A DNA stretch of 64,000 bases from Beijerinckiaceae bacterium (lineage in GTDB: Bacteria; Pseudomonadota; Alphaproteobacteria; Rhizobiales; Beijerinckiaceae): the NCBI GenBank assembly GCA_027533425.1, contig JAPZUD010000001.1:682001-746000 (forward strand). Direction: 5' to 3'. Below, in pieces: positions 2,832-43,921 of the stretch. Every line of letters starts with the position of its first letter. Positions within the stretch are counted from its first letter, which is position 1. The notes beneath the pieces were generated by a model. The model was not told the origin of the DNA. It saw only the letters and a list, made by a program, of their open reading frames with translations, and searched no databases. The position numbers were made by a program, and so were the translations under genes.

Positions 2832-2846
2832 GAACAAAAAGCGAAC
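2832..2846 (-). promoter_or_regulatory. Putative LexA (SOS) box upstream of uvrA
   Basis: On the minus strand this reads GTTC-GCTTTTT-GTTC, an exact match to the alphaproteobacterial direct-repeat LexA motif GTTC-N7-GTTC. It sits 132 bp upstream of the uvrA start. An 8-base fixed motif is expected about twice by chance in 64 kb over both strands, so the support comes mainly from its position in front of a classical SOS gene and from the presence of lexA in this window. Confidence 0.7.
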
Positions 2847-37941: not shown

Positions 37942-40211
37942 AACCCCGTGCCGCCGCCCGGCCGGCCATGCTGCCTGTTGGGCCACACCCGTTGGCGATG
38001 CCCGTATGGACGCGCCTTCCGGTCATCCTCTCGAACTGCCTCGCTCGGGAAGCCAGCCGGCGGACCGGCTTTCTCTGGTTTCCGGTCGCCTATGGCGCGG
38101 GGATTCTTGCCTATTTCAGCCTGCCGTCCGAACCCTCTCTCTGGGCAGCGCCGATCCTCGCCATCCTGCTGGCCGCGCTGGCGGGCCTTGTCAGAGGCGG
38201 GCGGCGCGGGTTCGCCCTGCTGGCGCTGATGGCCTGCCTCGGCATGATTGCGGGCAGCCTTCGCACCGCCCTCGTCGCCGCGCCCGTGGCCGGGCGGACG
38301 CTCATGGCGGAGGTGCAGGGTCATATCGAGACGATCGAATTCACGCCGCATCGCAGCCGCATCCTGCTGCGTGTCCACAGGGTGGAAGGCCTGGCGCCGG
38401 CGGAGACACCCTATCGTGTGAAGATCGGCCTGCCGGGCCAGCTGGCCTTGCCAACCGGCTCTGCCGTAACGCTCCGGGCCAGCCTCGCCCCGCCTGCCGG
38501 AGCGGCACTGCCGGGCGGGTTCGATTTCCGCCGCGAGGCCTTTTTCCGCGGCGTCGGCGCGATCGGCTACGCCATCGGGCCGGTGCGCCCATGGGCCGAA
38601 GCGCCGCCGCCGCCCGCCATGCTGGCCCGGCTGGCGCAGCTTGACGAGGCCCGCAACCTGCTCACGCGGCGGATCGCAGGGATCATCGAGGGGCCAGCCG
38701 GCGCAGTCGCCGCCGCTCTGGTCACCGGCAAGCGCGGCCTCATCCCGGACGAGGCCAATGACGCCCTCCGGCTGTCCGGCCTCTACCATATCGTCTCGAT
38801 TTCCGGCCTCCATATGGTGCTCGCCGCCGGCGTGCTGTTCTGGTCGATCCGGGCCGGGCTCGCCCTCTCGACACGGCTCGCCCTGCGCTGGCCGATTCGG
38901 AAGATGGCAGCCTTGGGCGCTATGCTGGGTGCCACGGCCTATTGCCTCTTTGCCGGCTCGGAAGTGGCGACAATCCGCTCGCTCGTCATGACATTGGTCA
39001 TGCTGGGCGCGATCCTGCTCGACCGTCCGGCCCTCGCGATGCGCAATCTCGCGCTTTCGGCCCTGCTGGTGCTGACCTTCCAGCCCGAAGCCCTGCTCGG
39101 GCCCTCCTTCCAGATGTCCTATGCCGCCGTCGCCGCACTGATCGCCGCGCAGGGGCTCTGGCGGCCGGCCAGACCGGAGCCGGACGGAACGCAAAGCCGG
39201 ATCGGGACCTGGACCCGCCGGATCCTCGCCGCCTTTGCCGGCATCATCGTCACCACACTCGTAGCCAGCCTGGCGACAGCGCCCTTCGCCGCCTATCACT
39301 TCTACCGGGTCAATCCGTTCGGGCTGATCGGCAACGCCCTCGGCATTCCGCTGGTCTCCCTGGTTGTCATGCCGGCCGCAGTGGCCGGGAGCCTGCTCTA
39401 TCCGTTCGGGCTCGACGAGCCGGTCTGGCGGCTGATGGGCCATGGCATCCGGGGAGTCATGGCCGTGGCGGAATGGGTTTCCGGGTTCGACAAGGCCAGC
39501 CTTCCGGCACCCCTGATCCGCCATTCACAATTCGGGGCGCTGGTGCTGGCCATGGCCTTGCTGATCCTGCCGGTCAGCCGCTTGCGGGCACTGGCGATCG
39601 CGCCCTTCGCGCTGTGGCTGGTTTCGCTGGCCATGCCCGCCCGGCCGGATCTGATCGTGCACGAGAATGGCCGGATCCTGCTCGCCCGCGGGGAGGGCGG
39701 AGCCTATCGTGTTCTCGCTTTCGGGCCCTCGCCGGATTTTGTGCTCGGCCAATGGCTGCCGGCTCTGGGCGATCCACGCCTGCCCAAGGCGCCCGATCTG
39801 AAAGATGGCGTGCGCTGCGACAGGCTCGGCTGCACCCTGCGCCTCGCGGATGGCCGCTGGCTGGCTTTCCCGCAGCGACCGGAAGCCCTGCGCGAGGATT
39901 GCGCCCGCGCCGATATCCTCGTCACGCCACTCGAAAACCGGATCTGCCCTCCGGATCGTGTGCCCGTGGATGCCCGGACGCTCCGACAGCAGGGCACGCT
40001 CTGGCTCTGGGCCAAGGCCGAGGGTGGGTGGCGGATCGAAGGCACGCGTGCGGCGCGGCATCATCGCCCGTGGCAGCTTCTGCCAGCGGACCCGAAACCT
40101 GTGGCGGAAAAGGGGAAGGGTGACCCCGCACCGGAAGGGCCGGGCGAGGACAGGCAGGGTGGCGAGACCGCCCCGCTTGATCCGGGGATCAGTAGCGGCG
40201 AACCAGGCTGA
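37938..40211 (+). CDS. comEC: ComEC/Rec2-family DNA-uptake membrane protein
   Basis: A 757-residue polytopic inner-membrane protein of the ComEC family, the channel for single-stranded DNA in transformation. N-terminal DUF4131-like region (about 30-230) with several hydrophobic helices; central competence domain (about 260-520) with [35 protein letters not shown] and [23 protein letters not shown] hallmarks. The C-terminal part (about 560-757) corresponds to the shortened, non-metallo-beta-lactamase tail typical of alphaproteobacterial forms; I see no intact HxHxDH motif. It overlaps lexA in the convergent direction by 23 bp and starts with an ATGA overlap to a small leader frame. Competence has not been shown for most such species. 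Confidence 0.93.
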
Positions 40212-40893
40212 CCAGCTTGCCCTGCACGCGCACCCGGTCCGGCCCGAAAATCCGCGTCTCGTAATTGGGATTGGCCGCCTCGAGCGCAATGGAAGCCCCC
40301 TTGCGGCGCAGGCGCTTCAGCGTGGCTTCCTCGTCATCGATCAGGGCCACCACGATATCGCCGGTATCGGCTGTATCCTGCTTCCGGATGATCACGAGAT
40401 CACCGTCGAAAATGCCGGCCTCGATCATCGAATCCCCGCGCACCTCGAGCCCGTAATGCTCGCCATGGCTGAGGAAATCGGGCGAGACATCCACCGTGTG
40501 GCTGCGGCTCTGGATGGCGGAAATCGGGGTGCCCGCAGCGATCCGGCCCATGACGGGGATGGCGACGGCACGGCTGGGCTCGACCGGTTCCGGCGCGGCG
40601 GCGGACGGGCGCACCTTGCCGAGATGGCCCTCGATCACGCTGGGCGAGAAGCGCTGCCGGCCCGGCCTCGGCACATAGGCATCCGGCAGGCGGATCACCT
40701 CCAGCGCCCGCGCCCGGTTGGGCAGGCGGCGGATGAAGCCACGTTCCTCCAGCGCGAGGATCAGCCGGTGGATCCCCGATTTCGAGCGCAGGTCGAGCGC
40801 TTCCTTCATCTCGTCGAAGGAGGGCGGAACCCCGTTCTCCGTCAGCCGCTCATGGATGAACCGCAACAGCTCGATCTGCTTCTTGGTGAGCAT
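40189..40893 (-). CDS. lexA: LexA repressor
   Basis: A 234-residue SOS repressor. The N-terminal winged helix covers residues about 1-70 ([33 protein letters not shown]), longer in its linker than the E. coli protein, as is usual in Alphaproteobacteria. The self-cleavage site is the Ala-Gly bond in [12 protein letters not shown]; the catalytic dyad is Ser in [15 protein letters not shown] and Lys in [14 protein letters not shown]. The start at 40893 has GGGAG upstream. Its promoter region holds three in-phase GTTC half-sites, indicating autoregulation, and an insertion sequence sits immediately beyond them. Pre-insertion, moeA would have ended only about 86 bp upstream, so lexA was the last gene of the trp/mo operon with its own promoter. 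Confidence 0.97.
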
Positions 40894-40930
40894 GGCACCC
40901 AACTCCCGGGAATCACCCAAAACAAAGACA

Positions 40931-40971
40931 GAACATCGATATCATGTTCGGCCGTTGTTCCGCAACTGTTC
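40931..40971. promoter_or_regulatory. LexA operator cluster in front of lexA
   Basis: Three GTTC half-sites lie at 40946-40949, 40957-40960 and 40968-40971, each 11 bp apart, giving two overlapping GTTC-N7-GTTC boxes. A further GAAC at 40931 makes an inverted arrangement with the first (GAACAT ... ATGTTC). The cluster overlaps the likely lexA promoter, as expected for autorepression. The last half-site is part of the insertion element's target duplication. Confidence 0.85.
40938..40965 (-). promoter_or_regulatory. Candidate lexA promoter
   Basis: On the minus strand TTGCGG (40965-40960) and GATATC (40943-40938) are spaced by 16 bp, resembling -35 and -10 elements, 45 bp upstream of the lexA ATG. 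LexA boxes overlap both. The element insertion boundary lies 10 bp upstream of the -35, so the core promoter appears intact. Confidence 0.45.
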
Positions 40972-40975
40972 GTCG
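40968..40975. repeat. Target-site duplication, left copy
   Basis: GTTCGTCG flanks the insertion element on the left and recurs exactly at 42689-42696 on the right. An 8-bp duplication is the norm for IS1595-family insertions. Confidence 0.9.
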
Positions 40976-40998
40976 CGGATATATCCCCTTTGAACATG
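40976..40998. repeat. Left terminal inverted repeat of the IS
   Basis: Matches the right end (42666-42688, inverted) at 20 of 23 positions; mismatches at the 5th, 15th and 18th base are all transitions. Abuts the target duplication directly. Confidence 0.9.
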
Positions 40999-41025
40999 GA
41001 AAAGAATCATGATAGCTCGTAAGCG

Positions 41026-41709
41026 ATGCAGGCAAAAAATCCAAATTGGCTTTCTCGAATTCTCCGCATTGAGCCAGGCATTTCCCTTGGCCAATGGTTT
41101 TGGGACCGGTTGTCCTCTTTGTGGCCACTCATCGTCGCCGCTGTTGGTGGTGGCGGCATGACTATTTCAGCAGCGTTCACAACATGGCTCGATAAGTGGG
41201 GCTATTTCGGCCTCACTGCAGTTGGCGTCATATCTGCGCTGGTGATTTTGCTCGCTGTAAGCGTAGTGAGAATTCTGGCATCGATCGCGAGAGAAAATAA
41301 TGCAAAATCAAGATATCTAGAAGCATCAGGAAGCTTATCGAAAGCCGCAAACCCTATGCTTGATGTTTTTAGAGATCAAATAATTGACATAAATGATCTA
41401 TTTATTCCATATCAAATGGTTCTTTCAAGGAAGAATTTTAGAAATTGCCACATCAAAGGCCCCGGAGTTATATTTACCGTCAGTCATGTTTCATTTACTG
41501 GTCCACATTTTAAGCAGTGTAATTTTATAGTTGTTAATTCGGAAAAAGATTTCGCATTGCGTGGAGTGGTTGCGTTTGAACATAGTCAATTTGACCAATG
41601 TCAATTCATAGACATCACTTTTGTCATTGATCAGACACTGGCAAAAGAATTAAGCGCCTCGATGCCTCACGCAAAATTCCTTGGGTTTGAGTTTGATGGC
41701 CACGCATAA
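41026..41709 (+). CDS. IS passenger: two-helix membrane protein with F-x-x-C repeats, function unknown
   Basis: A 227-residue protein that I do not recognise. Residues about 31-53 and 59-85 form two transmembrane helices joined by a short loop; a polar helix (85-125) follows. The C-terminal part is beta-rich and contains three spaced units of the form F-(R/K/D)-(N/Q)-C-x-(I/F) at residues 138, 162 and 189 (NFRNCHI, HFKQCNF, QFDQCQF), reminiscent of pentapeptide-repeat or right-handed beta-helix folds. Base composition is far more AT-rich than the chromosome (codons such as AAA, ATA, TTT are frequent), a sign of foreign origin. It starts 50 bp inside the left end of the element and ends 2 bp from the convergent transposase stop. 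It has no role in transposition that I can infer. Confidence 0.8.
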   Translation: MQAKNPNWLSRILRIEPGISLGQWFWDRLSSLWPLIVAAVGGGGMTISAAFTTWLDKWGYFGLTAVGVISALVILLAVSVVRILASIARENNAKSRYLEASGSLSKAANPMLDVFRDQIIDINDLFIPYQMVLSRKNFRNCHIKGPGVIFTVSHVSFTGPHFKQCNFIVVNSEKDFALRGVVAFEHSQFDQCQFIDITFVIDQTLAKELSASMPHAKFLGFEFDGHA

Positions 41710-41711
41710 AG

Positions 41712-42638
41712 TCATATGCCTGCGATTTGACCAGCTCTTGGCCGCGATGGCTCAAGGCGAAGCGCCTTCGGGAATGAAACCAACAAAGCCTGAAACATCA
41801 GCCAAGGCGCGTGCCGAAGGTTATGGCGATACTCGAACTCCCAAAGATACTTCTGCAGGTGCTTCCGAGAAACCCAAACGTAAGTCCCCTGAATCCCCCG
41901 CTTGAGGTTCGCCCAGAAGGCTTCAATATTGTTGGTGTGCGCGTCGCCGCGCTTCCATTCCTTCTTGCGGTGATTGATCGAGGCGTGATCGTATCCACCA
42001 CGAGCGGGTAGTGCCTTATACAGAGGCGCTTCATCAGTGTAGACGGTTGAGCCTTCCTTCACCCACTTGCGAACCTGCGGGATGACAGTGCGGCTATTCC
42101 TATCCGGGATGAAGCGGGTGACGATATCGCCGTCGCGCTCAATCATGCCGAGAACAACGGCCTTGTCGTCTTCGCCGCGCTTGTCCTTGCCGCCAATAAA
42201 GGCTTCGTCAATTTCAACTGCTGGATCATGCGCGCCCGTTCCACCAAGGGGGCGGTCACCATCGACAGAACCCATGTACTTGCGGATTTCGTGGCACATG
42301 CGCCAAGCGGTCTTGTATGTCACGCCGATCTGGCGCTGCACTTCCTTTGCGGCCACGCCGTTGCGGGAAGCGCAAAACAGGAACATGACGTAGAACCAAT
42401 CACGAAGTGATGTTCTAGTCTTCTCAAAAGGCGTCCCAGCGGTTGGATAGACCTGATGACCACAATGTTCGCATTCATAGCAACGACGAGATTTAACGCG
42501 ATGGTAATTAGCCTCGCGTTGGCATCCATAACACACGAAGCGCTTGCCATAGCGTGTGCGCATCAGGTGCTCTAGACACACTTCATCGTTCGGAAACGCG
42601 TCAAGAAACTGTCGGACTGTCGGCGATTTCGTGCTCAT
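41712..42638 (-). CDS. IS1595-family transposase
   Basis: A 308-residue transposase with the family's two parts: an N-terminal zinc ribbon (Cys36, Cys39, Cys56, Cys59 in FVCYGCQREAN ... CYECEHCGHQVYPTAGTPFEKT) and an ISXO2-type DDE catalytic core with VEIDEAFIGGKDKRG, TVYTDEAPLYKAL and HTNNIEAFWANLKRGIQGTY (third acidic or Asn position). The frame is complete and uninterrupted. The start at 42638 (MSTKSPTVRQF) gives the family N-terminus; a longer frame of ten residues lacks support. It lies 28 bp from the right inverted repeat, so its promoter is partly in that end. Same strand as moeA and lexA. Confidence 0.94.
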   Translation of the reverse strand: MSTKSPTVRQFLDAFPNDEVCLEHLMRTRYGKRFVCYGCQREANYHRVKSRRCYECEHCGHQVYPTAGTPFEKTRTSLRDWFYVMFLFCASRNGVAAKEVQRQIGVTYKTAWRMCHEIRKYMGSVDGDRPLGGTGAHDPAVEIDEAFIGGKDKRGEDDKAVVLGMIERDGDIVTRFIPDRNSRTVIPQVRKWVKEGSTVYTDEAPLYKALPARGGYDHASINHRKKEWKRGDAHTNNIEAFWANLKRGIQGTYVWVSRKHLQKYLWEFEYRHNLRHAPWLMFQALLVSFPKALRLEPSRPRAGQIAGI

Positions 42639-42665
42639 GCAAATCTTATCGCATATTTTTACTAA

Positions 42666-42688
42666 CATGTCCAGAGGGGATATGTCCG
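42666..42688. repeat. Right terminal inverted repeat of the IS
   Basis: Inverted counterpart of 40976-40998; see there. It ends directly at the right copy of the 8-bp duplication. Confidence 0.9.
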
Positions 42689-42696
42689 GTTCGTCG
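42689..42696. repeat. Target-site duplication, right copy
   Basis: GTTCGTCG, identical to 40968-40975; starts 4 bp beyond the moeA stop codon boundary at 42701. Confidence 0.9.
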
Positions 42697-42700
42697 GAAT

Positions 42701-43921
42701 TCAGCCGAGCCGCAGCACACGCGCAGGGTCGCCCGGCTGGCCCGCAGGCGCATGCGGCGGGCGGATCAGCAGCCCATCGGCCCGCGCCAGCACCGAAAGG
42801 AAGGAAGAATCCTGCCCTCCTGCCGGCCTGGCAACCCAGATCCCGTGGGGATCGCGGTCCAGCATGACGCGCTGGTAATCCTGCCGCTCGTCATTGGCCG
42901 GAAACGCTGCACCGAGAATCGCCGCCTCGCTGCGGTCCTGTCCGGCCTGCGCATCACCCTGCATGGCGGCGATCAGCGGCAGCAGGAACAGCCGCGTGCA
43001 GACAAGGGCCGAGACCGGGTTGCCCGGCAGGCCGAGCAACAGCATGGGCCCGAGCCGGCCGAAATTCAGCGGCTTTCCCGGCCGCATCGCGATCTTGTAA
43101 AAGGCGAGTTCGGCCCCGCGCGCCGCCGCGACCGGCCGGACGAGATCATGTTTGCCGACCGAGGCACCACCGATCGTCACGAGGCAATCCACCGCCTCGG
43201 CCAGCGCGCGGTCAATCGCGGCATTGAGCGCCTCGGGCGAATCCGGCGCGATGCCGAGATCGACGATCTCCACTTCCATCGGACGCATCATCGCCATGGC
43301 CGCAAAGGCATTGGTTGCGACGATCTGGTGCGGGGCCCTCGGGGCGCCGGGCAGAACCAGCTCGTCACCGGTGGCCAGCACGCCGATCCGCGGCCGGGCA
43401 AAAACGGGAATCTCCGCGTGGTTCATCGCTCCGGCCAGCGCAATATGGCCGGGGGTGAGCCGGGTTCCGGCAGAAAGCAAGGTCTGCCCCTCGTGGAAAT
43501 CGCAGCCGGCAGGGCGGACATGCCGGCCCGCCTGCGCGGCGACCGCGAGATGCAGATCCTCGCCCTCGGTCGTGGCATTTTCCTGCATGACAACGCTATC
43601 CGCCCCGGCAGGCAGGATCGCGCCCGTATAGATCCGGATCGCCTCGCCCGGACCGATCGTGCCGGGAAACGGGTGGCCAGCCGCACTCTCGCCGATGATC
43701 CGGACAACCGCACCCGCCGCGGCCCCATCGGCGGCGCGGAGCGCAAAACCGTCCATCGCCGACATGGCCGCCGGGGGTTGCGTGCGCAACGCGGTGAGAT
43801 TCGCCGCGAGAACACGGCCGCTGGCCTGCTGGACAGGCACCGATTCCTGCCGGCGGGGATGGGCAGCGCCGGCAGCAACAAGCAGGGCCAGCGCATCCTC
43901 AACCGGCAGCAGCCCGGCCAT
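42701..43921 (-). CDS. moeA: Molybdopterin molybdenumtransferase
   Basis: A 406-residue enzyme that inserts molybdate into adenylylated molybdopterin. Typical features: MSAMDGFALRAAD (domain III entry), IRIYTGAILPAGADSVVMQE, GVLATGDELVLPG, the MoCF-like TIGGASVGKHDLVRPV and MRPGKPLNFGRLG with LLGLPGNPVSALVC. C-terminal domain IV follows to the end (DGLLIRPPHAPAGQPGDPARVLRLG). One base separates it from moaC. Molybdenum cofactor is needed by the formate dehydrogenase in this window. The IS insertion lies 12 bp past its stop codon, cutting its read-through to lexA. Confidence 0.96.
   Translation of the reverse strand: MAGLLPVEDALALLVAAGAAHPRRQESVPVQQASGRVLAANLTALRTQPPAAMSAMDGFALRAADGAAAGAVVRIIGESAAGHPFPGTIGPGEAIRIYTGAILPAGADSVVMQENATTEGEDLHLAVAAQAGRHVRPAGCDFHEGQTLLSAGTRLTPGHIALAGAMNHAEIPVFARPRIGVLATGDELVLPGAPRAPHQIVATNAFAAMAMMRPMEVEIVDLGIAPDSPEALNAAIDRALAEAVDCLVTIGGASVGKHDLVRPVAAARGAELAFYKIAMRPGKPLNFGRLGPMLLLGLPGNPVSALVCTRLFLLPLIAAMQGDAQAGQDRSEAAILGAAFPANDERQDYQRVMLDRDPHGIWVARPAGGQDSSFLSVLARADGLLIRPPHAPAGQPGDPARVLRLG

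Follow-up and report, generated by a model that had tools for sequence, protein, structure and literature searches.

An IS1595-family transposon with a passenger gene at the lexA promoter of a Beijerinckiaceae bacterium and the probable preference of its lineage for LexA boxes

The element between lexA and moeA

Within the window, that is, the whole stretch of 64,000 nucleotides analysed here, a transposon of 1,713 bp (40976..42688, no strand assigned) is placed between lexA and moeA. It is bounded by 23-bp terminal inverted repeats at the cargo end (40976..40998, + strand) and the transposase end (42666..42688, − strand), which are identical at 20 of 23 positions with all three mismatches being transitions, and it is flanked by two identical copies of the 8-bp target-site duplication GTTCGTCG (40968..40975 and 42689..42696, no strand assigned). 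A first-pass annotation made from the sequence alone had placed both ends to the base and had described the imperfect repeats and the perfect duplication, and all of this was verified. The transposase gene (41712..42668, − strand, 318 aa, identified by profile matches) and the passenger gene (41026..41709, + strand, 227 aa, drawn from the ORF list, an alignment, a profile and a low-confidence structure model) lie tail to tail. The second gene is thus convergent, and it is also AT-rich as had been claimed, with a GC content of 0.39-0.44 in windows over the passenger versus 0.65-0.73 in the surrounding host DNA.

The description of the transposase as a full IS1595 enzyme holds as well, since it matches PF12762 (E 1e-37), PF12760 (E 6.5e-8) and NF033547 (E 3e-60; 203.8 bits, cut-off 75), and its ISXO2-like DDE domain and N-terminal zinc ribbon score 130 bits (cut-off 27) and 32.9 bits (cut-off 25.4), respectively. 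The IS1595 family generates target duplications of 8 bp, and both this duplication size and the imperfect inverted repeats are found in the element and likewise in its relatives. These findings support its assignment as an IS1595-family transposon carrying a passenger gene; it is present as a single copy in its own 3.75-Mb genome. It shares transposase domains, the 8-bp duplication, ends of 20-odd bp and the possession of passenger genes with the IS1595 passenger transposons, which we take to be the ISNwi1-like subgroup. A relative of the transposase (L046) was found in Nitrobacter winogradskyi, which fits the ISNwi1 name alone.

What the first-pass annotation missed was the target: the insertion lies at a LexA-type box in the promoter of lexA. 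The lexA gene was taken as the longest listed ORF (40189..40920, − strand; TIGR00498, E 5e-51; the scanned stretch begins at 40890), and the opposite flank is occupied by moeA/glp (42701..43921, − strand; ORF list and profile). The promoter of lexA holds two overlapping LexA-type boxes. The first, GAACAACGGCCGAAC (40946..40960, − strand), has the form GAAC-N7-GAAC and lies 7 bp from the duplication, at the preferred spacing described below; the second, GAACAGTTGCGGAAC (40957..40971, − strand), overlaps the first and extends into the duplication. The alphaproteobacterial LexA consensus is the direct repeat GTTC-N7-GTTC in the accessible parts of two reports (PMC3323433; PMC8565304), and GAACAACGGCCGAAC is its reverse complement; judged by its letters and its place upstream of an SOS gene, it would be an alphaproteobacterial LexA box. 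The pattern GAACAN6GAACA occurs at just 8 sites in the genome, 2 of which form the double box here, and the backward-read pattern occurs at 2. Another of the eight is a further exact LexA-type box, GAACAAAAAGCGAAC, at positions 2832-2846 (+ strand) of the window.

The orthologous empty site that the annotation had proposed to look for exists: locus L126 reads ...CCGCAACT-GTTCGTCG-GAATTC..., with exactly one GTTCGTCG at the join, and this is the pre-insertion sequence. We searched 17 congeneric genomes, that of the element among them, for lexA and obtained the locus in 15. The element was present in 2 (its own genome and G004), and 12 had a continuous lexA-moeA stretch without it; L138 shows no element in the lexA stretch read, which ends before moeA. 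Related elements in G004 and G045 and a remnant in G056 also lie between lexA and moeA, and another in G051 lies at a pcrA/uvrD-like gene. The G056 remnant comes from another family, is decayed, and retains a relative of the passenger.

The passenger gene and the exchangeable cargo slot

The passenger encodes hydrophobic helices near the N-terminus followed by a C-terminal domain, and it is predicted to be a membrane protein with a knotted-solenoid-like domain. A profile built from four sequences matched the C-terminal domain to the 3_1-knotted solenoids 9rds, 9qix and 9soj at E values of 7e-8 to 3e-7, while a single-sequence search against the same solenoids gave E values of only 0.06-0.17. 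The structure model of the passenger is poor (pLDDT 60.5), and the fold search with this low-confidence model returned nothing at E≤0.001 and did not recover 9rds, 9qix or 9soj. The relatives found are distant, at 20%-25% identity (20%-23% in the alignment), and come from three other elements or remnants (L003, L052, L087). A direct passenger search found no relatives in genome contigs, viral contigs or plasmids, and among 61 genomes there was one distant relative.

No PADLOC anti-phage model matched the passenger at E≤0.05. The match to the Hailong effector HalA (NF051894) fell far below the model's cut-off (E 0.012, 14.8 bits vs. 250), and HalA ranked third in the Foldseek search with the passenger model (E 0.37). 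Compared with Hailong, the present element has no second gene besides the transposase and the passenger, and the C-terminus of the passenger matches HalA weakly. Most likely the passenger is a solenoid effector or sensor anchored in the membrane; that it acts in defence is conceivable and, in our judgement, rather unlikely.

The two genes had been regarded as one mobile unit. This stands as far as the element carries the passenger, and it falls as far as a fixed pair is meant, for the relatives show an exchangeable cargo slot. In the element of the congener G004, at the same locus, the transposase is 92% identical and the cargo gene is different. Cargo space is nearly universal in the group: 88 of the 89 elements counted have 450 bp or more in addition to the transposase, in 84 of 89 this additional part is lower in GC than the flanking DNA, and a convergent ORF of at least 90 aa is present in 86. 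The sole counted element with less than 450 bp beyond the transposase, L171 (1,195 bp in total), does not lie at a box.

A membrane helix was predicted in the first 200 aa of 51 of the 82 longest convergent ORFs (150-400 aa), compared with 31 of 144 flanking ORFs; the cargo ORFs were chosen mechanically, and a wrong frame was sometimes picked. Domain scans covered ten cargo proteins each, most of them without a match above curated cut-off. Among the siblings, L043 carries an IrrE-type peptidase, with related ORFs in L050, L170 and L213, and the L227 cargo matches DUF7946/7947. In the PADLOC scan of nine siblings, the cargo of L034 and L110 matched the candidate defence family PDC-S42 and that of L043 matched capP-like models; in NCBIfam, the L034 protein exceeded the cut-off of the family named LAPAL-motif putative phage structural protein.

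LexA-type boxes beside relatives of the element

Relatives of the transposase were gathered and their ends were set by terminal repeat and duplication; boxes played no part in this step and were sought afterwards. The loci of G004, G045, G056 and G051 had been noticed before the relatives were collected. The first set comprised 123 loci, of which 8 were duplicates; of the 115 distinct loci, 59 were end-mapped (48 by a strict and 11 by a relaxed rule), and the 56 without mapped ends were excluded from every count. At L040, L041 and L046 the two duplication copies share only 5, 4 and 6 of their 8 bases, respectively. Of the 59 end-mapped elements, 31 have an exact box no more than 40 bp from the duplication, compared with 6 of 2,644 windows of the same size from the same loci (Fisher p 5e-50). 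The count is 28 of 48 under the strict end rule alone, and 28 of 55 after removal of the four resolved elements that had prompted the idea.

We distinguish class A, in which the half-sites read GAAC away from the duplication, from class B, in which the box has the opposite orientation. The spacing is narrow: 28 of the 31 box-adjacent elements show either a class A gap of 6-8 bp or a class B gap of 4-5 bp (binomial probability about 1e-25 assuming uniform placement, with the gap cells chosen post hoc), the exceptions being L023, L064 and L067. There are 14 class A sites not at recA, six of them at lexA, which were picked for having a box. Their eight half-site bases are informative, as selected on, and the base after either half-site, which was not selected on, is an A at 12 of the 14 sites; of the seven spacer bases, those past the first carry little information. 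On the letters at these positions, this pattern would be the one expected for a LexA operator and not for a −35 element. One site, GAACATATTGCGAAC, had been considered imuA-like and was rejected, the gene being recA.

Further samples delimit the preference. Two families were sampled, with a match at E≤1e-110 in 10 of 297 genomes of one and 13 of 296 of the other, and with one copy in each of the 23. Together with 8 loci from other searches, 31 loci were fetched, of which 18 were duplicates, 5 remained unresolved and 8 were new and resolved. Among these 8 new elements, an exact box with a gap of 6-7 bp was found in 5 and a one-mismatch box with a gap of 6 bp in 1, compared with 5 of 368 control windows; recA starts within 500 bp for four of the six box or near-box elements. 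Seven elements were inspected by hand, and L214, L219, L221 and L231 joined the 91. Each of these four has a box or near-box beside recA or lexA, a selection that favours the box reading; left out were L238, with two ends and no box, and L215 and L235, each with one unclear end.

A class-wide sample of 385 genomes yielded 20 new resolved elements. None of the 20 has an exact box (1 of 977 control windows does), and 3 of the 20 have a box with one mismatch at the class A gap of 6 bp, two of them at recA. The box rule, extended class-wide, failed outside the clade. Of 80 loci from viral contigs, 33 were resolved, with a box in 0 of 33 (controls 3 of 1,480). The viral-contig element L239 is not at a box, though its transposase is 91% identical to that of the box-targeting L045. 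In a sample of the phylum, 15 of 16 matched genomes belonged to the same class. Separately, the location of L239 inside a viral contig raises the possibility of carriage by phage.

The clades were delineated on a quick maximum likelihood tree of 97 transposases, computed with no bootstrap and with an outgroup that is not monophyletic; the labels core (48), sphingomonad (20) and sister (18) were coined in this analysis. A branch with SH-aLRT support of 96 joins 68 rows, which split into the sphingomonad group of 20 (support 100) and the core of 48, and a box is found in 44 of these 68, either exact or with one mismatch at a preferred gap. In the core clade, 42 of 48 elements (38 of 44 without the four added by hand) lie at a box, at a one-mismatch box with preferred gap, or at a recA promoter: 31 have an exact box, 8 a one-mismatch box, and 3 (L041, L051, L078) are at a recA promoter with no box by our rules. 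The other 6 (L038, L048, L113, L169, L171, L230) are elsewhere, away from box and recA/lexA. The start of recA lies within 500 bp in 26 core elements and that of lexA in 6 more; L216, where recA lies on the side of the box and lexA is matched more weakly on the other, is counted under recA (otherwise the tally is 25 and 7).

An exact box within 40 bp was found in 5 of 20 elements of the sphingomonad group and, with the same processing, a box in 1 of 18 of the sister clade, and the LexA-box pattern is absent in distant lineages. On chromosomes, one clade shows a strong preference for boxes; it is a trait of that lineage and not an absolute one, because the class-wide, viral and sphingomonad samples, together with the six core elements, depart from it.

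Other targets were seen in the sphingomonad group, where L071 and L083 have the target repeat CCTGA[ACTTGTTT]CAGG and L069 and L072 a similar one; all four sit in the middle of this palindrome, and the duplications of L071 and L083 are identical in different genomes. L062, L070, L073 and L092 share an identical insertion position, TTTTTCCTAGACAAG[TAGGATTT or TAGGAAAT], in front of one type of gene, which looks like a LexA-like peptidase-repressor. L070 and L092 have an additional LexA-type box on the other side, with a gap of 6 bp. A conserved ORF of about 60-70 aa behind the transposase gene was observed in L056, L119, L176, L179, L188, L189, L191, L193, L194, L217 and L236. It falls into two BLAST clusters, with longer frames in L193 and L194, and is present in many sister-clade and few core-clade elements; maybe it encodes an accessory transposition protein.

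Target choice in the lineage

The family membership of the element is ordinary, and its target choice is out of the ordinary. Very probably it is a copy of an alphaproteobacterial IS1595 lineage that prefers LexA (SOS) boxes of the host chromosome as its target. Insertion would generate the 8-bp duplication at a gap of 6-8 bp from a GAAC-N7-GAAC box, with the box lying between the duplication and the gene behind it; in a minority class the gap would be 4-5 bp and the box oppositely oriented. The box would be left intact, so that lexA or recA would keep its operator, making the site a safe haven, and we infer that the promoter still works after insertion. The slot adjoining the transposase would hold one or a few exchangeable cargo genes, mostly AT-richer and often predicted membrane proteins, which may serve the host or the element, for instance in defence.

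The transposition complex may recognise LexA bound to the box and not the bare DNA motif. Such recruitment is attractive because the site pattern fits a LexA operator rather than a −35 element. It is a tentative proposal, to which we give slightly less than even credence, that LexA on its operator is the targeting factor and that the element is a cargo platform docked at recA or lexA, whose docking point is reused and whose mobility or expression may follow the state of DNA damage in the host.

The alternative that fares best is that the transposase, without LexA, reads a DNA motif common to its own ends and the target. By eye, GAACATG-like motifs are found in many ends, at a distance from the tip similar to that from the box to the far edge of the duplication. 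However, ends resembled their own target no better than the targets of other elements (6.74/10 vs. 6.73/10, all lineages pooled), and we regard this explanation as improbable. A shade less probable still is that the transposase reads a sigma-70 promoter at a fixed distance upstream of the −35 element, with the LexA box incidental. There is precedent in TnGBS, ISLre2 and ISKra4, which insert 15-17 bp upstream of −35 according to the accessible text of PMC3942029, and several recA promoters have, on reading by eye, a −35-like TTGCGA inside the box. Yet the spacer at the 14 class A sites not at recA is little informative while the A after the half-sites is kept, and class B insertions lie on the opposite side of the box.

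Survivorship, by which insertion would be random and only harmless intergenic copies beside conserved genes such as recA and lexA would be kept and sampled, accommodates the facts that the box and the gene are unharmed by insertion and that the elements known from sequencing are a selected set. A fixed spacing is not among its predictions, however, and it is contradicted by the gaps seen in 28 of 31 elements, by the near absence of boxes in the identically processed sister clade, and by the use of the same 8 bp in opposite orientations in Brevundimonas (L075 and L077); we consider it very unlikely. The same genes in many species, and the decayed lexA-moeA remnant of G056 with its passenger relative, might suggest a single ancient insertion beside recA or lexA that was passed on by vertical descent while its cargo was swapped in place, but this is scarcely credible given duplications that are mostly perfect yet differ between species, congeners that are empty, the use of several loci, and both orientations among class A elements (28 with the box at the cargo end, 11 with it at the transposase end).

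In L043, L047, L170, L213, L216 (1 bp off) and L231, the flank of the duplication farther from the box abuts an older terminal repeat; these six are every element scoring at least 9 there, against a background of 7 of 5,244 windows. This arrangement is explained by repeated insertion at one docking point, with the newest copy next to the box.

A conserved, host-sparing target site, similar to that of the present lineage, is used by Tn7 (attTn7) and by the res hunters Tn402/Tn5053, which differ in requiring several transposition proteins. Among the matches listed in our literature search, in which subscription journals are thinly covered, there was no published report of LexA-box targeting by an IS1595 element. 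According to the accessible text of PMC10132070, the dif-site hunters of the ISAjo2 group (IS1202 family) likewise keep a constant spacing, 5 bp, between the insertion and a site bound by a host protein, and contact between transposase and XerC is given as one possibility. They differ in belonging to another IS family, in inserting in one orientation, in having a 5-bp duplication, and in targeting a recombinase site and not a repressor operator; cargo goes unmentioned in that portion of the article, unlike in the present lineage. TnGBS, ISLre2 and ISKra4 also employ a DDE transposase and insert upstream of a regulatory DNA signal at a constant spacing, but the signal is a sigma-A promoter and the transposases are Mutator-like (PMC3942029, accessible text). 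A link between SOS and insertion sequences is shared with ISCR, in which, as far as the available part of PMC13393415 goes, the SOS response raises transposase expression and so acts on transposase regulation, not on target choice.

Few cases are known in which a simple insertion sequence hunts sites at a fixed distance. In the present lineage, dozens of natural insertions lie beside one well-characterised operator, and therefore the choice between reading of DNA and reading of a bound host protein is directly testable. The recA and lexA promoters would be docking sites for diverse, unstudied cargo, some of it related to candidate defence families, and for annotators the SOS promoters of alphaproteobacteria are insertion hot spots for this IS1595 lineage.

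A separate observation concerns the recA spot itself. AGGCCAC/AGGACCA motifs are found within about 100 bp of L037, L039, L040, L041, L068 and L109, on the side away from the box, next to recA in several Hyphomicrobiales. No second transposase was obvious by eye among the ORFs of at least 200 aa in L068 and L039. The motifs look like the multi-repeat end of another, IS21-like insertion sequence, and possibly a second type of element uses the same recA spot.
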